Below are positions 6,384 to 52,219 of a stretch of 64,000 nucleotides of DNA, piece after piece. Source of the DNA: Companilactobacillus tucceti DSM 20183 (lineage in GTDB: Bacteria; Bacillota; Bacilli; Lactobacillales; Lactobacillaceae); the NCBI RefSeq assembly GCF_001434665.1, contig NZ_AZDG01000006.1:1-64000 (forward strand), written 5' to 3'. Every line of letters starts with the position of its first letter. The first letter of the stretch is position 1. Position numbers and translations under genes: made by a program. The notes beneath the pieces were generated by a model. The model had not been told where the DNA came from, searched no databases, and saw only the letters and a program-made list of their open reading frames with translations.

Positions 6384-6409
6384 GAAAAAAGAGACCTATT
6401 TGGTCTCTT
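6384..6409 (-). terminator. Terminator at the end of recA
   Basis: GAGACC...GGTCTC stem with a T run on the minus strand. It includes the recA stop codon. Confidence 0.85.
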
Positions 6410-7526
6410 CTCCAGAATTCTTAGATGATTTTTTACTATCAACATCTAATTTTAAATCAGTTGAAGCTTCTTTTTTATCATCTGTTTTTTTATCAGACTT
6501 ATCATCTTTTTTATCTGATTCTTCTTCAGGTTTACCATCCATATTGTAAGCATCACGTACTTTTTTACGAATTTCAGCCATCTTTTCAGGATTATCAGCT
6601 AAGAATTTCTTAGCGTTCTCACGTCCTTGACCAATTCTGTCTTCTTTATATGAATACCATGAACCACTCTTATTGATAATGTCTTTTTCGACAGCCATAT
6701 CAACAAGCTCACCTGTTTGAGAAATACCATGTCCATACATAATATCAACAAGTGCCACTTTAAATGGAGGGGCTACCTTGTTCTTTACGACCTTTATTTT
6801 AGTACGGTTACCAATTACATCTGAACCATCTTTAATTTGCTCAGAACGTCTTACCTCAAGTCTGACGGTGGAATAGAACTTCAATGCACGTCCACCAGGT
6901 GTTGTCTCAGGATTACCAAACATAACTCCGACCTTTTCACGGATCTGATTAATAAATAAGGCAATTGTTTTAGTTTTGTTAATTGTTCCTGACAACTTAC
7001 GTAAAGCTTGAGACATTAAACGAGCTTGCAAACCAACATGAGAGTCACCCATGTCACCATCAATTTCAGCTCTAGGTACTAAAGCCGCAACAGAATCGAC
7101 AACAACGATATCAACAGCTCCACTGGAAACTAGCGCATCGGCAATTTCCAATCCTTGTTCACCAGTATCAGGCTGTGATAGTAGCAAATCATCAATATTA
7201 ACACCTAATGCTGTTGCATATGTTGGATCCATAGCATTTTCAGCATCAATATAAGCAGCTGTTCCACCTTGTTTTTGTACTTCGGCAACAGCATGTAACG
7301 CTACAGTAGTTTTACCAGAACTTTCAGGGCCATAGATTTCTACGATTCTACCACGTGGGAATCCACCAACTCCTAAAGCATTATCCAGTGCCAAAGAGCC
7401 CGAGGAAACTGCTTGGATCTGCATATCCAAGTCATCACCCATACGCATGATAGCACCCTTACCAAAATCCTTTTCGATTTTTTTTAGGGCTTTATCAAGC
7501 GCCTTTTGTCTTTCATCATTAGCCAA
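6396..7526 (-). CDS. recA: Recombinase RecA
   Basis: Strand-exchange ATPase and SOS co-protease, 376 aa. Walker [10 protein letters not shown] (about 65-73), Walker [10 protein letters not shown], and the DNA-binding loops between them are conserved. The C-terminal 45 residues are a Lys/Asp/Ser-rich tail, somewhat longer than in Bacillus. The start is TTG (7524-7526), followed by ANDERQKAL and preceded by AGGAGG at good spacing. A LexA-type box lies 70 bases upstream, so SOS induction is expected. It is needed for transformation together with comFA and coiA. Confidence 0.98.
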
Positions 7527-7596
7527 ATTGTCTTCCTCCTAATGCATTCATCACTAGATATATTATTAGTAATTCCAAAAAAAAGCAAGAAAAAAG

Positions 7597-7610
7597 CGAA
7601 CAAATGTTTG
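7597..7610 (-). promoter_or_regulatory. LexA (SOS) box upstream of recA
   Basis: CGAACAAATGTTTG on the plus strand matches the Gram-positive LexA consensus CGAACRNRYGTTYG at nearly all positions. It lies between the cinA stop and the recA start, so recA can be transcribed separately under SOS control. Confidence 0.85.
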
Positions 7611-40063: not shown

Positions 40064-41062
40064 ATGACACTATATAAATATTTAAAAGACCATATAGGGC
40101 TAATTTTGGTAATTTTATTTGGAATAACTTTCATTGAAATAGTCTTTTATTTAGATCCGCAAGTACACTTTCAAAAAGGTACTTTGATTTATACTTGGAT
40201 CTTAGCAATCCTTATCTCTGCCACTAGTCTGGTTTTATCTTTCAATAGAAAAAAATCATGGTATAACATTCTTCAAAAAAGTGACAATGATCTATCAAAA
40301 GAATTAACCGGGGCCAAAAATAACGAAGAAAAATTTATTCAAAAAAAGATAAATGATATATCACTAGACTATCGAAAAGAGTTAACAGATCTTTATCAAA
40401 GTCAAAAAGATCAACGTGAATACACGGAATCTTGGGTTCACGATATTAAAGTTCCATTAGCTGCATTGAAACTATCTCAAGATTCCGATTTGGATAAAGA
40501 ATTACTTGATGAAGAAATTGACCAAATTGATTATTTAGTAGATCAGGCATTATATTTCGCCAGACTAACGAATTTTTCCAATGATTATTTGATTCAAGAA
40601 CAAAATTTAAGTAGTATTGTAAAATCGTCGATCAGAAGTAATAAGAGAATGTTTATCTCAAAACGTATCGGAATTGATTTAGATATAAGTTCTGAAAAAG
40701 TTTTGACTGATGAAAAATGGCTCAGTTTTATCCTCAATCAAATTGTTTCTAACAGTCTTAAATATACAGACCAAGGCGGAAAAATATCTATTTTTACTAC
40801 TAATAAAAATAACAATGTCGCCTTACATATCAAAGATAACGGTATCGGTATTGCCAACCAAGATTTAAGCCGAGTCTTCAATAAAGGGTTTACCGGCAAA
40901 AACGGACGTACATCCGGCAGTAAATCCACTGGTATGGGACTATATCTTGTTAAAAAAATGGTGGATAAACTCGGTCATAAAATTGAAATAAATTCACAGG
41001 TGGATAAAGGAACGGAAATTGTTATCACCTTCTTGGATCTTCCATATTATCAAAGAACGTAA
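40064..41062 (+). CDS. bceS: BceS-type sensor histidine kinase
   Basis: Intramembrane-sensing kinase, 332 aa. Two N-terminal transmembrane helices (about 12-30 and 40-58) with almost no extracellular loop, typical of BceS, which senses through BceAB. The phospho-acceptor His is in ESWVHDIKVPLAALK (about 125-139), then the ATP-binding boxes NQIVSNSLKYT, DNGIG and GKNGRTSGSKSTGMGLYL. A terminator closes the bceRS operon. Confidence 0.92.
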   Translation: MTLYKYLKDHIGLILVILFGITFIEIVFYLDPQVHFQKGTLIYTWILAILISATSLVLSFNRKKSWYNILQKSDNDLSKELTGAKNNEEKFIQKKINDISLDYRKELTDLYQSQKDQREYTESWVHDIKVPLAALKLSQDSDLDKELLDEEIDQIDYLVDQALYFARLTNFSNDYLIQEQNLSSIVKSSIRSNKRMFISKRIGIDLDISSEKVLTDEKWLSFILNQIVSNSLKYTDQGGKISIFTTNKNNNVALHIKDNGIGIANQDLSRVFNKGFTGKNGRTSGSKSTGMGLYLVKKMVDKLGHKIEINSQVDKGTEIVITFLDLPYYQRT

Positions 41063-41081
41063 TTAAGACGTTCTTTTTTTT
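41053..41081 (+). terminator. Terminator after bceS
   Basis: AAGAACGT/ACGTTCTT stem with long T run. Confidence 0.85.
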
Positions 41082-41093
41082 AACGACAAATGC

Positions 41094-41111
41094 GAACGTA
41101 TATTCTATAAT
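41094..41111 (+). promoter_or_regulatory. LexA-like box abutting the -10 of the nuclease/sce7725-like pair
   Basis: CGAACGTATATTCT (41093-41106) resembles the recA box CGAACAAATGTTTG; its core GAACGTATATTC is one base from a perfect GAAC-N4-GTTC. The -10 TATAAT (41106-41111) follows at once, so a bound repressor would block the promoter. No clear -35 was found. Confidence 0.5.
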
Positions 41112-41144
41112 ATAATTAGATGTTTGCGTGAAAGTGAGAACGTT

Positions 41145-41873
41145 ATGAAGACTAAACTAACTAAAAATCTTGAAACTACCCTTTATCAATACTGTTTGGA
41201 ACAAGATTCTTATGTTGTTGAGGAAGTTTCAATGCCTGATAAAAAAGGTATCGTTGATACTTTGAGTTATCGGCAACTACCTAATGGTGAAATAGAATGG
41301 CGCTGTTTTGAATTAAAAATCACCAAAAATGACTTTCATTCTAAGGCCAAACTATCATTTATTGGGAACTATAACTATTTTGTTTTAACAAAAGAACTTT
41401 TTGAAGAAGTTAAAGAAGAAGTTAAAGAAGAAGTTCCCGATAATATTGGAGTTTTGATTTATCGTGCATTCGATCAAAAATCAGTCGAATTATCACCTCA
41501 AACTCAACGTGCCCCTGGATTTTTAACAATTGCTAAAAAGGCTAAATATCAAGATCTACAAGTAGATGAAAAATATCTTACAAGTCACTTCATCGCATCA
41601 TTATTCCGTGAAGTAGATAAAGCTAAACGTATAGAAAAAGGATTGCAACTATACTCTGACGATAAACTTTTTAAAGAACTCAAAAAACGTTCCAAGACCG
41701 GTTATAACGTTTATAAACCTGAACGAAATCTATACGACCGTTTTATTGAAGAATCAGAAAACGATAAAATTGCAGCTCTAGAAGAAGAGTTAGACGCAAG
41801 AAACGCAGAATACCAAGCACTAAAACTCAAATTACAATCTGAGGATTCTCCAAATATGGAGGATTTGATATGA
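41145..41873 (+). CDS. PD-(D/E)XK nuclease-like protein, first of a coupled pair
   Basis: Unassigned protein, 242 aa. A restriction-endonuclease-like core is visible: GIVD (Asp38) followed by WRCFELKITKNDF (Glu56, Lys58), then strand/helix units to GVLIYRAF, resembling MmcB- and sce7726-type DNA-acting proteins. Residues about 91-102 hold a tandem EEVK repeat encoded by a 12-base DNA repeat. The last 40 residues are a predicted coiled coil. ATG 41145 follows AAAGTGAG. The stop overlaps the next start (ATGA), so the two proteins are made together. Function unknown; a DNA repair or defence role is inferred. Confidence 0.6.
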   Translation: MKTKLTKNLETTLYQYCLEQDSYVVEEVSMPDKKGIVDTLSYRQLPNGEIEWRCFELKITKNDFHSKAKLSFIGNYNYFVLTKELFEEVKEEVKEEVPDNIGVLIYRAFDQKSVELSPQTQRAPGFLTIAKKAKYQDLQVDEKYLTSHFIASLFREVDKAKRIEKGLQLYSDDKLFKELKKRSKTGYNVYKPERNLYDRFIEESENDKIAALEEELDARNAEYQALKLKLQSEDSPNMEDLI

Positions 41874-42778
41874 CGATATATTATCCATATTTGCGCGGTC
41901 GCATGTATGATTTATTAGCACTAAAAGAATTGTGTGAAAACAATCAATTGGGACCAAACATCATCCCCATAATTGAACCGGTACGCGATTCTAAAGAATT
42001 ACAAACAACGGTGAATACTTTTTTAAAATGTAATCAATCTTTCAGTGTTATTTCAAATCCTCAAGTAAGTGTTTATGGCCTAAATGACACTAAACTTCAT
42101 CCCCTACCAGACATGTCAGCTGTTGATAACTTTTTACCGAGTGCCATTTTAGCAGCCGATTTTTCCACAGATTACTTAGATACAAATAAAAGAACTCTTT
42201 TAATCGCTAAAAACTATCCACTGTTAAAGGCTTATCAACAAACTGACCTATTAAAAAACGTCACTAATGTGTTGATTCCAGAAGAAGCTAGGTTGCATGA
42301 AATAGTTGGAGACAAAGCTGTTTCATTAACTGATCCATTGACTTTTGTAAAACATGTTGAAGATTATAAACTATTAGAAGATGAATATTTTCAACCAGCC
42401 AGTTGGTACAATCAGATTGATAATTATGATGGTTTTGGTGATTATTCAATGGTTGGAAGTTTTTACTTCGATAAGGAGATGCCTAGTCGAGCCATTGCAC
42501 TACATATAATCTATGTAACAAAAGATGGAAGTTTAAGAATCCACCACTTTGTTTCTGATAGTAATGAGAGTATGCGTGGCCAAAAGGAAAAATTCTTTGA
42601 GGCACTGAATAAATTAGTCCAATGGTCCAAAAATCATATTAATGGCATAAATAATACTTCTGCTTTACAAGAATTATTAGCTTATAATCAACAAGACAAA
42701 TTTCCAGGTTTAGGAACTGTGAAGAAACTATCATTAAAGCACCATTTTCAATTGATGAAGAGATTACTTGAATATTAA
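41870..42778 (+). CDS. sce7725-like (beta family) protein, second of a coupled pair
   Basis: Protein of 302 aa starting MTIYYPYLRGRMYDLLALKE, the opening typical of the sce7725 family related to the phage beta proteins. Further segments: NIIPIIEPVRDS (about 33-44), AILAADFSTDYL, and YSMVGSFYFDKEMPSRAIALHI. No catalytic motif is recognised. GGAGG lies seven bases before the ATG, and the ATGA overlap with the nuclease-like gene implies a fixed partnership. Such pairs are widespread and of unknown function as far as I know. Confidence 0.65.
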   Translation: MTIYYPYLRGRMYDLLALKELCENNQLGPNIIPIIEPVRDSKELQTTVNTFLKCNQSFSVISNPQVSVYGLNDTKLHPLPDMSAVDNFLPSAILAADFSTDYLDTNKRTLLIAKNYPLLKAYQQTDLLKNVTNVLIPEEARLHEIVGDKAVSLTDPLTFVKHVEDYKLLEDEYFQPASWYNQIDNYDGFGDYSMVGSFYFDKEMPSRAIALHIIYVTKDGSLRIHHFVSDSNESMRGQKEKFFEALNKLVQWSKNHINGINNTSALQELLAYNQQDKFPGLGTVKKLSLKHHFQLMKRLLEY

Positions 42779-42790
42779 TTACATTTGAAT

Positions 42791-42851
42791 AAAAAAATAG
42801 TCCTCATTTTTATAGGTTTTTAAAATCTACAAAAATTGAGGACTATTTTTA
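42791..42851. terminator. Shared terminator of convergent genes
   Basis: AAATAGTCCTCA/TGAGGACTATTT stem with T runs on both strands, between the sce7725-like and SLAP genes. Confidence 0.88.
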
Positions 42852-44441
42852 TTTAACTACATTAACTCCGTCATCCGCTTTAACAAACTCATCTGTAGAA
42901 ACTCCATAATAAACCCCACCATGCATATCGGTTCCAATTTTGTCTACTTTCCAGTTAGTTCCACCAGATAATGCTCTAACCTTTGAAACTTCTTTCTTGG
43001 AATTTTGAAGTGCATAGACTTTATGGTTCTTTGCCAGACTAATTTCCTTTGGTGTATCTAAATTTTGAATCGTCATACTTTCGGTAATTTCTCCGTTTGA
43101 AATAAAATCTACATCTGAGGCATTTACCCATTCGTGTGACGAAACTCTATATTGTTTTACACCATTAATGGTTCTGATTTTGTCTGTTTTCCATGAAGAA
43201 TTTGCCATCAAACTACGATGGGAAACTTTATTGTTATCGTCATTGTATAACGCATAATATTTTGCATCCTTATGTGTTGTAACAATACCTGAAATACCAT
43301 CATCAACAGGTTTATTAGGAACAACATCAATTTCTTGTACTACGTAGATAGTATTAACTATTGGTAAATCAAAAGAATAATTTTTTATTGAATCATCTAA
43401 TGATTTACCATTAATCTTGAGATTTAGATTATCTTTATCTGTTGACGAACCACTGTCAGAAGACATGGAATTCATTTTATTGGAGAAGAGTTTATATCCT
43501 TCAGTGTCTTTTGCATCTTTATCGCTGTCTCCAAAATCAAGCGGCATTAATCTATAATATGTTCCTGTTTTAAAAGTGTCACCCTCAAGATGTTCAAAAT
43601 CATCAGTAGGAAGTGGATTTCCGTTATTATCAAATAACTCAGGATTAATATTCATAAATAGTTTACTAAAATTAGGTCTTTTTAATCGTGCATATAATGC
43701 TTTGCGATAAAATTCAGGTTTATCATAAATGTTATTGAAGTAACTGACATAAATAGTTCTATTATTACCGTCCGAACCAGTATCGGTAAGTTTAGGATCA
43801 ACATATTTCTTAGGATCGTCTATGGATGAAATTGGCGTTCCATCCGTAACTGTTATTTTAGATTTATAAGAAAAGTTGGCCGAGGTTGTTTCACCATCCA
43901 GAATATTAAGCCTCAATCCAGTTGAACCACTAACATTATCCATAGTTTCACCATCAAGATAAAAAATACTGATATTCATTGTGTAGGAACCAACTCCCAA
44001 ATTTTGGAAATCTTTCATAGTTTTGATCCGTTCACCATTTGAATTATATATTTGCAAGCCGATCGACACTTCATTATTTTTTAAATAATCTGAATCCGAA
44101 TCAGGCAATTCTTGACTCATATATTTTTTAAAAAAATCGTAATCAAACAAAAAATATCCTTGACCTAAAAATTTATCGATTCCCGGAACTGGATCCTCAT
44201 CGTCATTCATATCATCTAAAAGATTAGCATTGTTTTCATTTGAGAAATCCGAATAAAAACTCTTCCTAATACTCATAGACTTAAATTCATTAGCAATTGC
44301 TTGCAACCTAGAAGCGTCTATTGGTTGTTGCCCTTCACTATCAGCACGAACTTCGACAGTTGGTATTACTTGAGGCACTATTGGTCCGACCATTAATAAT
44401 GCAGTAAGGACTACTTCTGAGAACTTGATAATTTTTTTCAT
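42849..44441 (-). CDS. SLAP-domain secreted surface protein
   Basis: Exported protein, 530 aa. Signal peptide 1-34 (ends VEVRADS); a large Asn/Asp-rich ectodomain of unknown fold (about 40-390); two C-terminal S-layer-associated (SLAP) domains of about 60 residues each, with parallel segments AKYYALYNDDN...NSSWKTDKIRTINGVKQYRVSS and HKVYALQNSKK...GTNWKVDKIGTDMHGGVYYGVS (given in parts). SLAP domains attach proteins to cell-wall polymers in lactobacilli. CGAGGG precedes the ATG. No sorting signal. The cargo domain gives no clue to ligand. Confidence 0.82.
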   Translation of the reverse strand: MKKIIKFSEVVLTALLMVGPIVPQVIPTVEVRADSEGQQPIDASRLQAIANEFKSMSIRKSFYSDFSNENNANLLDDMNDDEDPVPGIDKFLGQGYFLFDYDFFKKYMSQELPDSDSDYLKNNEVSIGLQIYNSNGERIKTMKDFQNLGVGSYTMNISIFYLDGETMDNVSGSTGLRLNILDGETTSANFSYKSKITVTDGTPISSIDDPKKYVDPKLTDTGSDGNNRTIYVSYFNNIYDKPEFYRKALYARLKRPNFSKLFMNINPELFDNNGNPLPTDDFEHLEGDTFKTGTYYRLMPLDFGDSDKDAKDTEGYKLFSNKMNSMSSDSGSSTDKDNLNLKINGKSLDDSIKNYSFDLPIVNTIYVVQEIDVVPNKPVDDGISGIVTTHKDAKYYALYNDDNNKVSHRSLMANSSWKTDKIRTINGVKQYRVSSHEWVNASDVDFISNGEITESMTIQNLDTPKEISLAKNHKVYALQNSKKEVSKVRALSGGTNWKVDKIGTDMHGGVYYGVSTDEFVKADDGVNVVK

Positions 44442-49550: not shown

Positions 49551-49680
49551 CTTGCTGCTTAAACGCGCAGAAAAACACAGCTTTTTCCGCTTAAAGCAAA
49601 TGACCCTATCAATCCAAAATCGGATTGATAGGGTCATTTGCCTTAATGCTCGAAAGCTGAACGTGTTTTTCTACGCTCTA
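49551..49680. repeat. Dispersed palindromic repeat, family 2, copy 2
   Basis: Full palindrome. Outer arms GCGCAGAAAAACAC and GTGTTTTTCTACGC are near-perfect complements; central hairpin CAAATGACCCTATCAATCC with its complement. It fills the gap between the WxL gene and nrdJ and contains the nrdJ stop codon TAG in its right end. Confidence 0.85.
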
Positions 49681-51915
49681 TTTAATTGGACATGCTCCAC
49701 TTTCACAATCAGATTGATCTACTAACTCTAGATCTTTCTTATCATGATCACCACTTAATTCAGAAAATTCTTCAGCAACATTTCCTTTTATTTCAGATTC
49801 ACGTTCTTGATATATTTTCTTATCGATTGGTTCTTTAGGTGCTTGTTTAAACTCCCCACCACTGTATGGTAACAATGAAGTGGATTTTGTAGTATTGCGG
49901 TATTGATACATCAGTGGTGCAATTTCTTTAGCTTCATTTGGTTGGAAAGTAACGGTACAACTAACCGCATTATCTGACCAATATGTTTGCAAAAATGCTT
50001 GTGTAGCAAATTGTTCAGCAATTGAAACATTACCAGCTGATGCAAAGTTAGGGTTATCAGCATTAACTGCCTTAACTGGAAATTCAACACACATAGTATG
50101 TTTTGTATAAATATCTGGTTCGATCTTGTATCCACAAGCTTTCAATGCTGGAAGCAATGGATCGTTGTCTTGGAATCTAATTCTTTGAATTAGATAACCT
50201 GCATAATGGAAATGCATTCCTTCTGAAACACCAGCAAGTTTAGCAACAGTACCTGATGGTTTAACAGTTGTATGTTTAATTGAAGGCTGGCAATTTAAAG
50301 CCTTTGAATAATCAGCATCAGCTTTAACAACGGAATGATACAAATCATCAAATCTCTTAACAATTCTTTGATCGTAAACAGGTTTCTTAATAGCAACACC
50401 ATCATCCATAGCATCTTCAAAGCCTGTAACTACACGATTTCCAAAAGTATTTAAGATCCAGTCTTGAATACCTGACATTGAAACTCCGATACGACGATTC
50501 TTTTGAATAACATTACGTGAAACTTCCCAATCGTAATTACTGAATGTAACACGTTTTGTATATCTAGCCGCTAAGCCAAAAGCTTCTTCCAATTTCCAAC
50601 CTTGTTTTTCGGCAATAACTGGAAATACTTCAAATAGATTACATGGTTCACCGTTACTTAACGAGATTTCACCACATGGATTAGTACCTTCAACCGCATC
50701 ATCAATTCCTGGTTGGTAACCGTCGGCTATACGACCATAATTACGTGATAGTTCAAGGTTAACGATTCCTGGTTCTCCATTATGTGTAATGGAATCTGCA
50801 ATTGGTTGATACTTAGTGAACTTAGAATCAACAGAAACACTATTATTTGAAGCCCAACGATGATGATAAAGCTTCTCTTGGTCTTGCTTCATTGTAATAA
50901 AGTCATTATCTGTAGCCCCACCTAAAGCAAGCTCAGCTGAACGACGAACGTTACCAGCAACAACCGTTTTACCAATAAGGTTACCCATATCTGTACAGTC
51001 AACAGAAGTTAATTGTCTTCCTACGGCCTCATCTAAAACTTTATTAATATCAAAGAACATTTCAATCAATGGAACAGGACCTGAAGCAGTACCACCAAAT
51101 CCTTTGATTTTAGCGCCCTTTGGTCTGATATCAGTAATATCTAGAACAACATCATCGATTTTTTCTTTATTTGTAGATACAAAATGAGCATCGATCATAT
51201 TAGCATTGGCAATTACCCAACCTTCACGAGTATCCGGTAACTTATAAAAACGTACATTATCTGTACTATGTGACTTCATCCACTCTTCACGGTCAACTGC
51301 ACCAGCTTTAAGTGAATCTGCATAAGAAGCACTCTTTTTATCGATCAAAACTGTTAAATTAACATTTTGATCGACAACAGGCATTTGTTTCATATTTTCA
51401 GGAACAACGGAAAAACCAACTCCGCCACCCTTCATCAGTTGATCAAACATAAATGAAAATGGCATCGAAACAGCAACTTGATCTTTTTCCAAATATGAAG
51501 GAACAATATGACTGTCACCATAAGATTGTGGACGGATAGCGATAAACCAGCAATTATTTAAAGCATCACCATTTCTATCTTGATAGTCAGTTCCAGAGAT
51601 CCAAAGATTTCTACCTGAAGGAGTAGCAGCTAATCCATAAACCAATTTATATAATTCTTGAGCTTCACTAACAAGTCCAGAGTATGCTTCATCAGTTAAC
51701 GAATCCTTTTGCAAACGTGGATCAAGATTGATATTTCCTTCAACAACACGTTTAACGGTTTCAGACCAGTTTTCGGTACGTCCTAGTTCAGGTATCCAGC
51801 GAGCATATGTACGCTTGTAAGTGACCCAGCCTAGTTCTCCCCAATGTGGTTTGATTGTTTCTTTAACATGATCAACAAAATCTTTTTTTAAGGTAATTTT
51901 CTTTAGTAAACTCAT
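49678..51915 (-). CDS. nrdJ: Adenosylcobalamin-dependent ribonucleoside-triphosphate reductase
   Basis: Class II monomeric ribonucleotide reductase, 745 aa, close in length and motifs to the L. leichmannii enzyme. It makes dNTPs using coenzyme B12, with or without oxygen. Motifs: NCWFIAIRPQSYGD, NPCGEISLSNGEPCNLFEV holding the active-site thiyl Cys, and the C-terminal redox pair in DCESGACPIK. GGAGTG precedes the ATG. Two NrdR boxes overlap the promoter. The stop codon lies in a repeat arm five bases after the CPIK end. Confidence 0.96.
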   Translation of the reverse strand: MSLLKKITLKKDFVDHVKETIKPHWGELGWVTYKRTYARWIPELGRTENWSETVKRVVEGNINLDPRLQKDSLTDEAYSGLVSEAQELYKLVYGLAATPSGRNLWISGTDYQDRNGDALNNCWFIAIRPQSYGDSHIVPSYLEKDQVAVSMPFSFMFDQLMKGGGVGFSVVPENMKQMPVVDQNVNLTVLIDKKSASYADSLKAGAVDREEWMKSHSTDNVRFYKLPDTREGWVIANANMIDAHFVSTNKEKIDDVVLDITDIRPKGAKIKGFGGTASGPVPLIEMFFDINKVLDEAVGRQLTSVDCTDMGNLIGKTVVAGNVRRSAELALGGATDNDFITMKQDQEKLYHHRWASNNSVSVDSKFTKYQPIADSITHNGEPGIVNLELSRNYGRIADGYQPGIDDAVEGTNPCGEISLSNGEPCNLFEVFPVIAEKQGWKLEEAFGLAARYTKRVTFSNYDWEVSRNVIQKNRRIGVSMSGIQDWILNTFGNRVVTGFEDAMDDGVAIKKPVYDQRIVKRFDDLYHSVVKADADYSKALNCQPSIKHTTVKPSGTVAKLAGVSEGMHFHYAGYLIQRIRFQDNDPLLPALKACGYKIEPDIYTKHTMCVEFPVKAVNADNPNFASAGNVSIAEQFATQAFLQTYWSDNAVSCTVTFQPNEAKEIAPLMYQYRNTTKSTSLLPYSGGEFKQAPKEPIDKKIYQERESEIKGNVAEEFSELSGDHDKKDLELVDQSDCESGACPIK

Positions 51916-51942
51916 TATGCTTCACTCCATTTAAAATAAATA

Positions 51943-51990
51943 ACACAATATATAGTATCTCAAGTCATATGAGATAACAAGATATTGTGC
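51943..51990 (-). promoter_or_regulatory. nrdJ promoter with two NrdR boxes
   Basis: ACACAATATATAGTAT (51943-51958) and TAACAAGATATTGTGC (51975-51990) match the NrdR box consensus. Their centres are 32 bases apart, about three helical turns, as in known NrdR operators. The minus-strand promoter TTGTTA, 17 bases, TACTAT lies across both. Confidence 0.85.
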
Positions 51991-52219
51991 TTAAAAATTA
52001 CTATTACACAAAGTACCGATACGAACAAAAGTTTGGTATATCAAGTAGTAGCTAAAGTAGATATAAAAAAAATATTTTTTAACTTCACAAACAAGAAGTT
52101 ATATTTGAAATTTCAAACTCGCAAATTCAATTCTAATATGTTTATAAGTTGATAATCAATGGTTTTTTTAATTACTATTTGCATCTATATTTCAAGAGGT
52201 TGACAAGAAATTTTTCAAT

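Follow-up and report, generated by a model that had tools for sequence, protein, structure and literature searches.

The two overlapping genes at positions 41145 to 42778 of the window, the latter being the complete stretch of 64,000 nucleotides from Companilactobacillus tucceti DSM 20183 that was analyzed, constitute a real and conserved pair, which probably specifies an SOS-controlled repair nuclease with unusual parts. On balance, we favor the view that the encoded proteins, here termed P1 and P2, represent a LexA-controlled DNA-damage repair nuclease unit which works with an XPD-type helicase. The SOS switch, coupled with the usual helicase partner, points to a DNA-damage repair unit rather than to a phage-defense island. 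This proposal draws on features established by sequence analysis, namely, conservation of the pair, the nuclease fold of P1 and its catalytic residues, the SOS boxes, and both the linkage to and the co-occurrence with the helicase.

P1 (positions 41145 to 41873, forward strand) is predicted to encode a 242-amino-acid PD-(D/E)XK nuclease-fold protein with putative catalytic residues D38, E56, and K58, and P2 (positions 41870 to 42778, forward strand) a 302-amino-acid sce7725-family protein with a TIM-barrel-like model. The ATG at 41145 is the likely start of P1, because the sequence MKTKLT is conserved across relatives, and the longer open reading frame from 41124 represents an unlikely start. 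As described in a first-pass annotation of this DNA, both reading frames are present and overlap by ATGA at positions 41870 to 41873, and the pair possesses its own promoter and terminator. The promoter, of the sigma-70 type (41083 to 41111, forward strand; -35 ACGACA, 17-bp spacer, -10 TATAAT), is located just downstream of the intrinsic terminator of the upstream two-component operon (41052 to 41076, forward strand), which was identified by a consensus scan. Since promoter-like sites in the scan scarcely exceeded the shuffle count (10 versus 9.3), support for the P1 promoter rests on its conservation in the window and in loci L148, L149, and L150. P2 is followed by a strong terminator-like hairpin with a T-rich end (42786 to 42855, forward strand; fold of -24.4 kcal/mol, z -7.4), which is common with the convergent downstream gene and was recognized by its fold, not being among the terminators of the consensus scan. 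The reading frames also fit the flanks previously assigned from their translations, i.e., a two-component/ABC transporter module upstream and a surface-protein gene downstream. The surface-protein-like frame (42849 to 44441), which lies directly 3′ of the pair in convergent orientation, is absent from that place in C. kedongensis, C. keshanensis, and C. baiquanensis.

These three species harbor the nearest named relatives of P1 (87 to 89% identity), and alignment of the relatives revealed D38, E56, and K58 to be invariant. Structure prediction yielded a PD-(D/E)XK-type core followed by a long, coiled-coil-like C-terminal helix (residues 196 to 234), in agreement with the PD-(D/E)XK-like protein with a C-terminal coiled coil envisaged by the first-pass annotation, which had made its case dependent on the prediction of such a core. 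The closest solved structure to the P1 model, as determined by Foldseek, is 3dnx, with neither the P1 nor the P2 model obtaining a PDB match below an E value of 0.001. Profiles of P1 and P2 searched against PDB sequences returned nothing useful, a sequence search with a Bacillus phage relative of P1 did not reach 3dnx, and comparison of P1 to Pfam, NCBIfam, PHROGs, and PADLOC produced no named family and one PHROG with no function assigned. Judged by its residues and its model, P1 is likely a PD-(D/E)XK nuclease-fold protein which cuts DNA.

A functional precedent may be found in MmcB, described in a review (PMC9578287) as an SOS-regulated PD-(D/E)XK endonuclease which renders Caulobacter resistant to mitomycin C and cisplatin. 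The P1 pair resembles MmcB (PF06319) in its PD-(D/E)XK fold with the D...ExK residues and, by sequence, in its SOS boxes. However, P1 falls below the family cut-off and carries the long C-terminal helix, while the sce7725 partner and the helicase association of P1 are not mentioned for MmcB in the passage on it in that review (PMC9578287). The window P1 produced no hit to PF06319 and did not reach the gathering cut-off; against this cut-off of 22, the best score was that of one P1 relative (17.4 bits), and the Bacillus phage relative, which is annotated as an "MmcB-like DNA repair protein," attained 16.8 bits.

P2 is a true sce7725-family protein, matching NF033831 over its full length (residues 4 to 300) with 302 bits against a cut-off of 60, and its earlier designation as sce7725-like thus holds. 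Its candidacy as a Beta_protein was rejected, as P2 has no match to PF14350 at E values up to 1 and just a short N-terminal motif in common with beta. Comparison to the PADLOC model PD-Lambda-2_C gave an E value of only 0.026, and an hhalign comparison to beta of phage P4 covered 33 columns with a probability of 8.7; sequence therefore links P2 to beta weakly.

The association between the two genes was assessed in the best 80 of 189 P1 relatives, all of which are, by title, Lactobacillaceae or uncultured Lactobacillus. In each of these 80 loci sce7725 follows P1, and in 75 the P1 stop overlaps ATGA, GTGA, or TTGA; since order and overlap are kept to this degree, the adjacency is not attributable to chance. 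Across 301 genomes of the family, all 81 with a strong P1 match also possess sce7725 (this count disregards weak P1 hits in G114 and G207 as well as secondary weak hits in G175, G172, G300, and G209), and four more have sce7725 without P1. The first-pass annotation had regarded a nuclease-fold protein and its sce7725 partner as a unit, which a survey finding them rarely together would have called into question; co-occurrence, overlap, and fold all support that unit. Within the order, P1 was detected in 40 of 246 genomes, of which 8 belong to the window's family, 31 to family f135, and 1 to family f2. Family f135 is taken as Enterococcaceae because an Enterococcus faecium record has its genes arranged as in L147, and L147 shares neighbors with L264. 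The 19 loci fetched among the 32 outside the family (18 of f135 and G829 of f2) present the pair in varied neighborhoods, in which the helicase is never directly upstream. Across the phylum, P1 is found in 2 of 348 genomes, the window's own and G555, the P1 relative of the latter having no adjacent sce7725.

Distant P1 relatives without sce7725 are also found in Bacillus phages. P1-like nuclease genes, some of them annotated as endonuclease or MmcB-like, are present in Bacillus phage SPG24 (L228) and 40 other Bacillus phage records, and none of these P1-bearing records was matched in an sce7725 search of the same phage collection. A phage origin of the pair was considered and rejected: the record with both genes that is labeled Listeria phage LM 4-14-1 (L147; OR848224.1) is a bacterial contig, its genes being ordered as in the E. 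faecium record L308.

Two elements had been overlooked in the first-pass annotation, namely, a LexA box at positions 41093 to 41106 and the usual third gene, which encodes a helicase. The latter is positioned directly 5′ of P1 in 75 of the 80 loci, the five exceptions being the window's three sister species and two Lapidilactobacillus loci. The linked helicase, of approximately 790 amino acids, is XPD/Rad3/YoaA-like with a weak Cas4-like N terminus; while it belongs to the DinG/YoaA/XPD (Rad3) superfamily, it misses the cut-offs of the NCBIfam YoaA, DinG, and Rad3 models. In the window genome the helicase is encoded apart from the pair (G000:C12:119820-122156; L108) among different neighbors, and neither pair nor helicase occupies the place common in the genus. 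Separation is also evident from the coordinates in G275, G123, G170, G191, and G209, and in all 19 P1 genomes fetched outside the family the helicase is encoded elsewhere. In five of these 19 genomes (G795, G819, G723, G845, and G789) it shares the strand of the pair at a distance of 7 to 13 kb, a spacing which possibly represents an intermediate between the linked and separated states. Each of the 81 P1 genomes of the family possesses the helicase, which is present in 83 of the remaining 220 (Fisher 2e-27), a contrast confounded by ancestry. As the helicase often occurs without the pair, and the pair never without the helicase in the genomes checked, it is suggested that the pair serves the pathway of the helicase. 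No literature on an operon of this helicase with P1 and P2 was found, and the pair is not named in literature on sce7725, sce7726, and beta, on SOS regulons, or on MmcB, as judged from titles and abstract openings among the matches listed.

The LexA/SOS box of the pair, CGAACGTATATTCT (41093 to 41106, forward strand), is situated between the -35 and -10 elements, touching the latter, and deviates from CRAACNNNNGTTYG by two mismatches. Because sites with two or fewer mismatches are common (81 of 573 leaders), the window's own box is convincing solely by conservation: save for single bases, the -35 to -10 block is conserved in the window and in C. kedongensis, C. keshanensis, and C. baiquanensis, and the rest of the P1 leader is more variable across the four species. 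Scanning was performed with two consensuses, a box in the family counts being a site with at most one mismatch. At that threshold, 15 CGAACNNNNGTTCG-type sites are present in this genome, five of which precede genes reading as lexA, recA, uvrB, a Y-family polymerase gene, and parE, the remaining sites being located before or inside other genes. A reversed control pattern was commoner (47 versus 15 sites), so it is the identity of the genes, not the site count alone, that carries weight. Elsewhere in the window, a recA-like frame (6396 to 7610) has a LexA box at positions 7597 to 7610, and a frame reading as the ribonucleotide reductase large subunit (49678 to 52035) is preceded, at a distance of about 107 bp, by a LexA-like box, CGAACAAAAGTTTG.

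Among relatives, a box was identified in 47 of 78 assessable operon leaders of the 80 loci, compared to 45 of 629 other leaders (approximately 7%), a contrast which is conservative because some of the other leaders share the same intergenic space, and which, like the helicase co-occurrence, is confounded by shared ancestry. Outside the family, where the pairs stand alone, 11 of 18 P1 leaders (a P1 frame was called in all but one of the 19 loci) and 2 of 121 others (approximately 2%) contain a box. The inner bases vary between genera (CGAACGTATGTTTT, CGAACAGATGTTTT, and CGAACACGCGTTCA), and the E. faecium record carries CGAAAATATGTTCG just 5′ of the P1 start, letter for letter the uvrB site of the present genome. 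Long reading-frame starts may hide a few boxes, as the long frame of L147 scored none and the same region in E. faecium has a box before the annotated start. With at most one mismatch allowed, a box is missing from leaders of several genera (Secundilactobacillus, 8 of 9; Lacticaseibacillus, 3 of 3; Lapidilactobacillus, 2 of 2; Levilactobacillus, 9 of 24 assessable). Where pair and helicase lie apart, as in the window genome and G275, boxes are present on both pieces, that of the pair with two mismatches; the separated helicases L108 and L109 have the box CGAACGTGTGTTTT, and L108, the helicase of this genome, thus has a LexA box of its own with one mismatch. In G123, G170, G191, and G209, which belong to another genus, the separated helicases have no box. 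A site with at most one mismatch occurs before 2 of the 19 helicases encoded apart from the pair outside the family (L285 and L296) and in 1 of the 13 helicase leaders scored among 14 loci fetched from genomes without P1 (L114 to L127). As read from these alignments and counts, a LexA-type box is present in the promoter of the pair and conserved in relatives, and SOS control of the pair, together with the trio organization, is well supported.

It is, therefore, from the SOS switch and the usual helicase partner that the following scheme is proposed. LexA would repress the P1-P2 bicistron from the box inside the promoter until, upon DNA damage, its cleavage would allow P1 and P2 to be made together through the coupled ATGA junction. 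P1, as an MmcB-resembling PD-(D/E)XK nuclease, is presumed to cut damaged or branched DNA, with the TIM-barrel protein P2 as a partner which probably controls or targets it. The unit would act with the Cas4-like/XPD-type helicase, whose gene lies directly 5′ of P1 in most Lactobacillaceae loci analyzed and at another place in the genome of the window species. From these data we infer the repair role, LexA binding, nuclease activity, the physical contacts of P1 with P2 and of the unit with the helicase, and the kind of lesion.

The relatives of sce7725 in toxin or defense-like cassettes count against the repair reading, as do the pair leaders and separated helicases lacking a box, the two mismatches in the window's own box, the subthreshold MmcB score of P1, and the Foldseek E values of both models. 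Away from P1, sce7725 occupies the middle position in sce7726-sce7725-RES, an arrangement encountered in Lactobacillaceae, other Bacillota, and plasmids (those of Rhizobium, NT-25, Moraxella, and Shinella were looked at). Seven Lactobacillaceae sce7725 loci without P1 were fetched, with the cassette families confirmed on representatives; six have all three genes and L082 lacks sce7726, and the arrangement looks like a mobile toxin or defense cassette. In the phylum sample, sce7725 is present in 8 of 348 genomes, and, besides the window's own, L301 to L306 have all three genes (RES being in two pieces in L303) and L307 is broken. The pair resembles this cassette in that P2 is sce7725 and in that a D...ExK-motif protein is encoded directly upstream (the sce7726 motif having been read by eye). 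It differs in that P1 has no detectable similarity to sce7726, RES is absent, and the pair has SOS boxes, whereas no box with two or fewer mismatches precedes the five sce7726 genes scanned. P1 did not match the sce7726 model NF033832, and its candidacy as a divergent sce7726 was dropped as not detectable (hhalign probability 0.1, which, with shallow alignments, is weak evidence of absence). No RES-type frame was labeled in P1-type loci, the frame downstream of the pair in the window being convergent and surface-protein-like. In phage P4, beta is annotated as "beta family" and the adjoining cII as "sce7726 family protein."

This kinship with defense cassettes keeps alive an SOS-triggered anti-phage or abortive-infection role, which we regard as rather unlikely. 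Phage infection or prophage induction would elicit the SOS response, P1 would degrade DNA, and P2 would act as trigger or sensor, the module descending from cassettes of the sce7726-sce7725-RES and gop-beta-cII types. According to the respective reports, gop-beta-cII protects against phages lambda and P1 (Rousset et al. 2022; PMC9122126), and the beta-like third protein of PD-lambda-2, PD-lambda-2C, is required for defense by that system (Vassallo et al. 2022; PMC9519451). Beta and sce7725 share the short N-terminal motif, and cII carries the sce7726 family annotation; however, no Gop or HigB-type gene was recognized beside the pair, and P2 misses the Beta_protein family. The window's pair has no third gene that could encode a toxin, and none was recognized by reading the helicase-P1-P2 loci; P1 itself could be harmful. 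A PADLOC scan of 10 neighbors gave hits for four at E values up to 0.001, which are read as generic (an ABC-type ATPase, a response regulator, a histidine kinase, and a fourth hit at 0.0009), so that no defense island is evident. The first-pass annotation had proposed a repair or anti-phage module in an accessory position. Its repair half is favored by the SOS boxes in two families and by the co-occurrence with a helicase also common in genomes lacking the pair; its anti-phage and accessory half is weakened by the absence of an evident defense island and by the distribution of the pair, which was detected in 14 of the 15 genomes sampled from the window's genus and, in 8 of 11 other own-genus loci fetched, at one shared chromosomal place.

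Less probable still is an arrangement in which P1 is a harmful nuclease that P2 restrains until damage occurs, the output being growth arrest or death instead of repair. The tight ATGA coupling, the intact nuclease residues of P1, and the presence of sce7725 in all 81 strong-P1 genomes would suit such a pair, as would the toxicity of P4 Gop without beta reported in PMC9122126. Yet the order, nuclease then partner, does not favor synthesis of an inhibitor first, P2 is just remotely like P4 beta, P1-like genes occur without sce7725 in Bacillus phages, and in 75 of 80 loci a repair-type helicase is encoded immediately 5′ of P1. That P1 and P2 are unrelated housekeeping genes merely sharing a promoter is scarcely credible and disfavored as far as genomics can do so, for although neither protein has a tested function, their order is kept in all 80 loci, outside the family the pair turns up again in very different neighborhoods, and in the window's clade it stays together apart from the helicase.

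Returning to the repair unit, its possible origin was addressed with a tree of 52 sce7725 proteins, in which 35 P1-linked and 17 RES-type rows are split by a branch with support of 98/93; the tree has no outgroup, so that the direction of change is not given, and it contains several long branches, two of which meet. As placed in this tree, P1-linked sce7725 would form one separate branch, which fits one partner swap. We tentatively entertain, while considering it somewhat doubtful, that in Lactobacillales the sce7725 of a mobile toxin or defense cassette, having lost the RES toxin and exchanged its nuclease partner once, became part of a chromosomal LexA-controlled three-protein repair machine composed of an XPD-like Cas4-helicase, an MmcB-like nuclease, and a TIM-barrel partner. 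If true, this machine would represent an unnamed equivalent, in Gram-positive bacteria, of excision or crosslink repair by helicase and nuclease, and it would suggest how parts of toxin or defense cassettes can become chromosomal repair genes. The repair reading would offer a testable function for two proteins so far annotated just as "hypothetical" and "sce7725 family," and, for lactic acid bacteria and probably enterococci, would extend the SOS response by a candidate nuclease-helicase pathway. Complete three-gene cassettes were observed in other Lactobacillaceae (L081, L084, L085, L086, L087, and L088), and two genomes of the window's genus, G260 and G175, carry second sce7725 copies in such cassettes.
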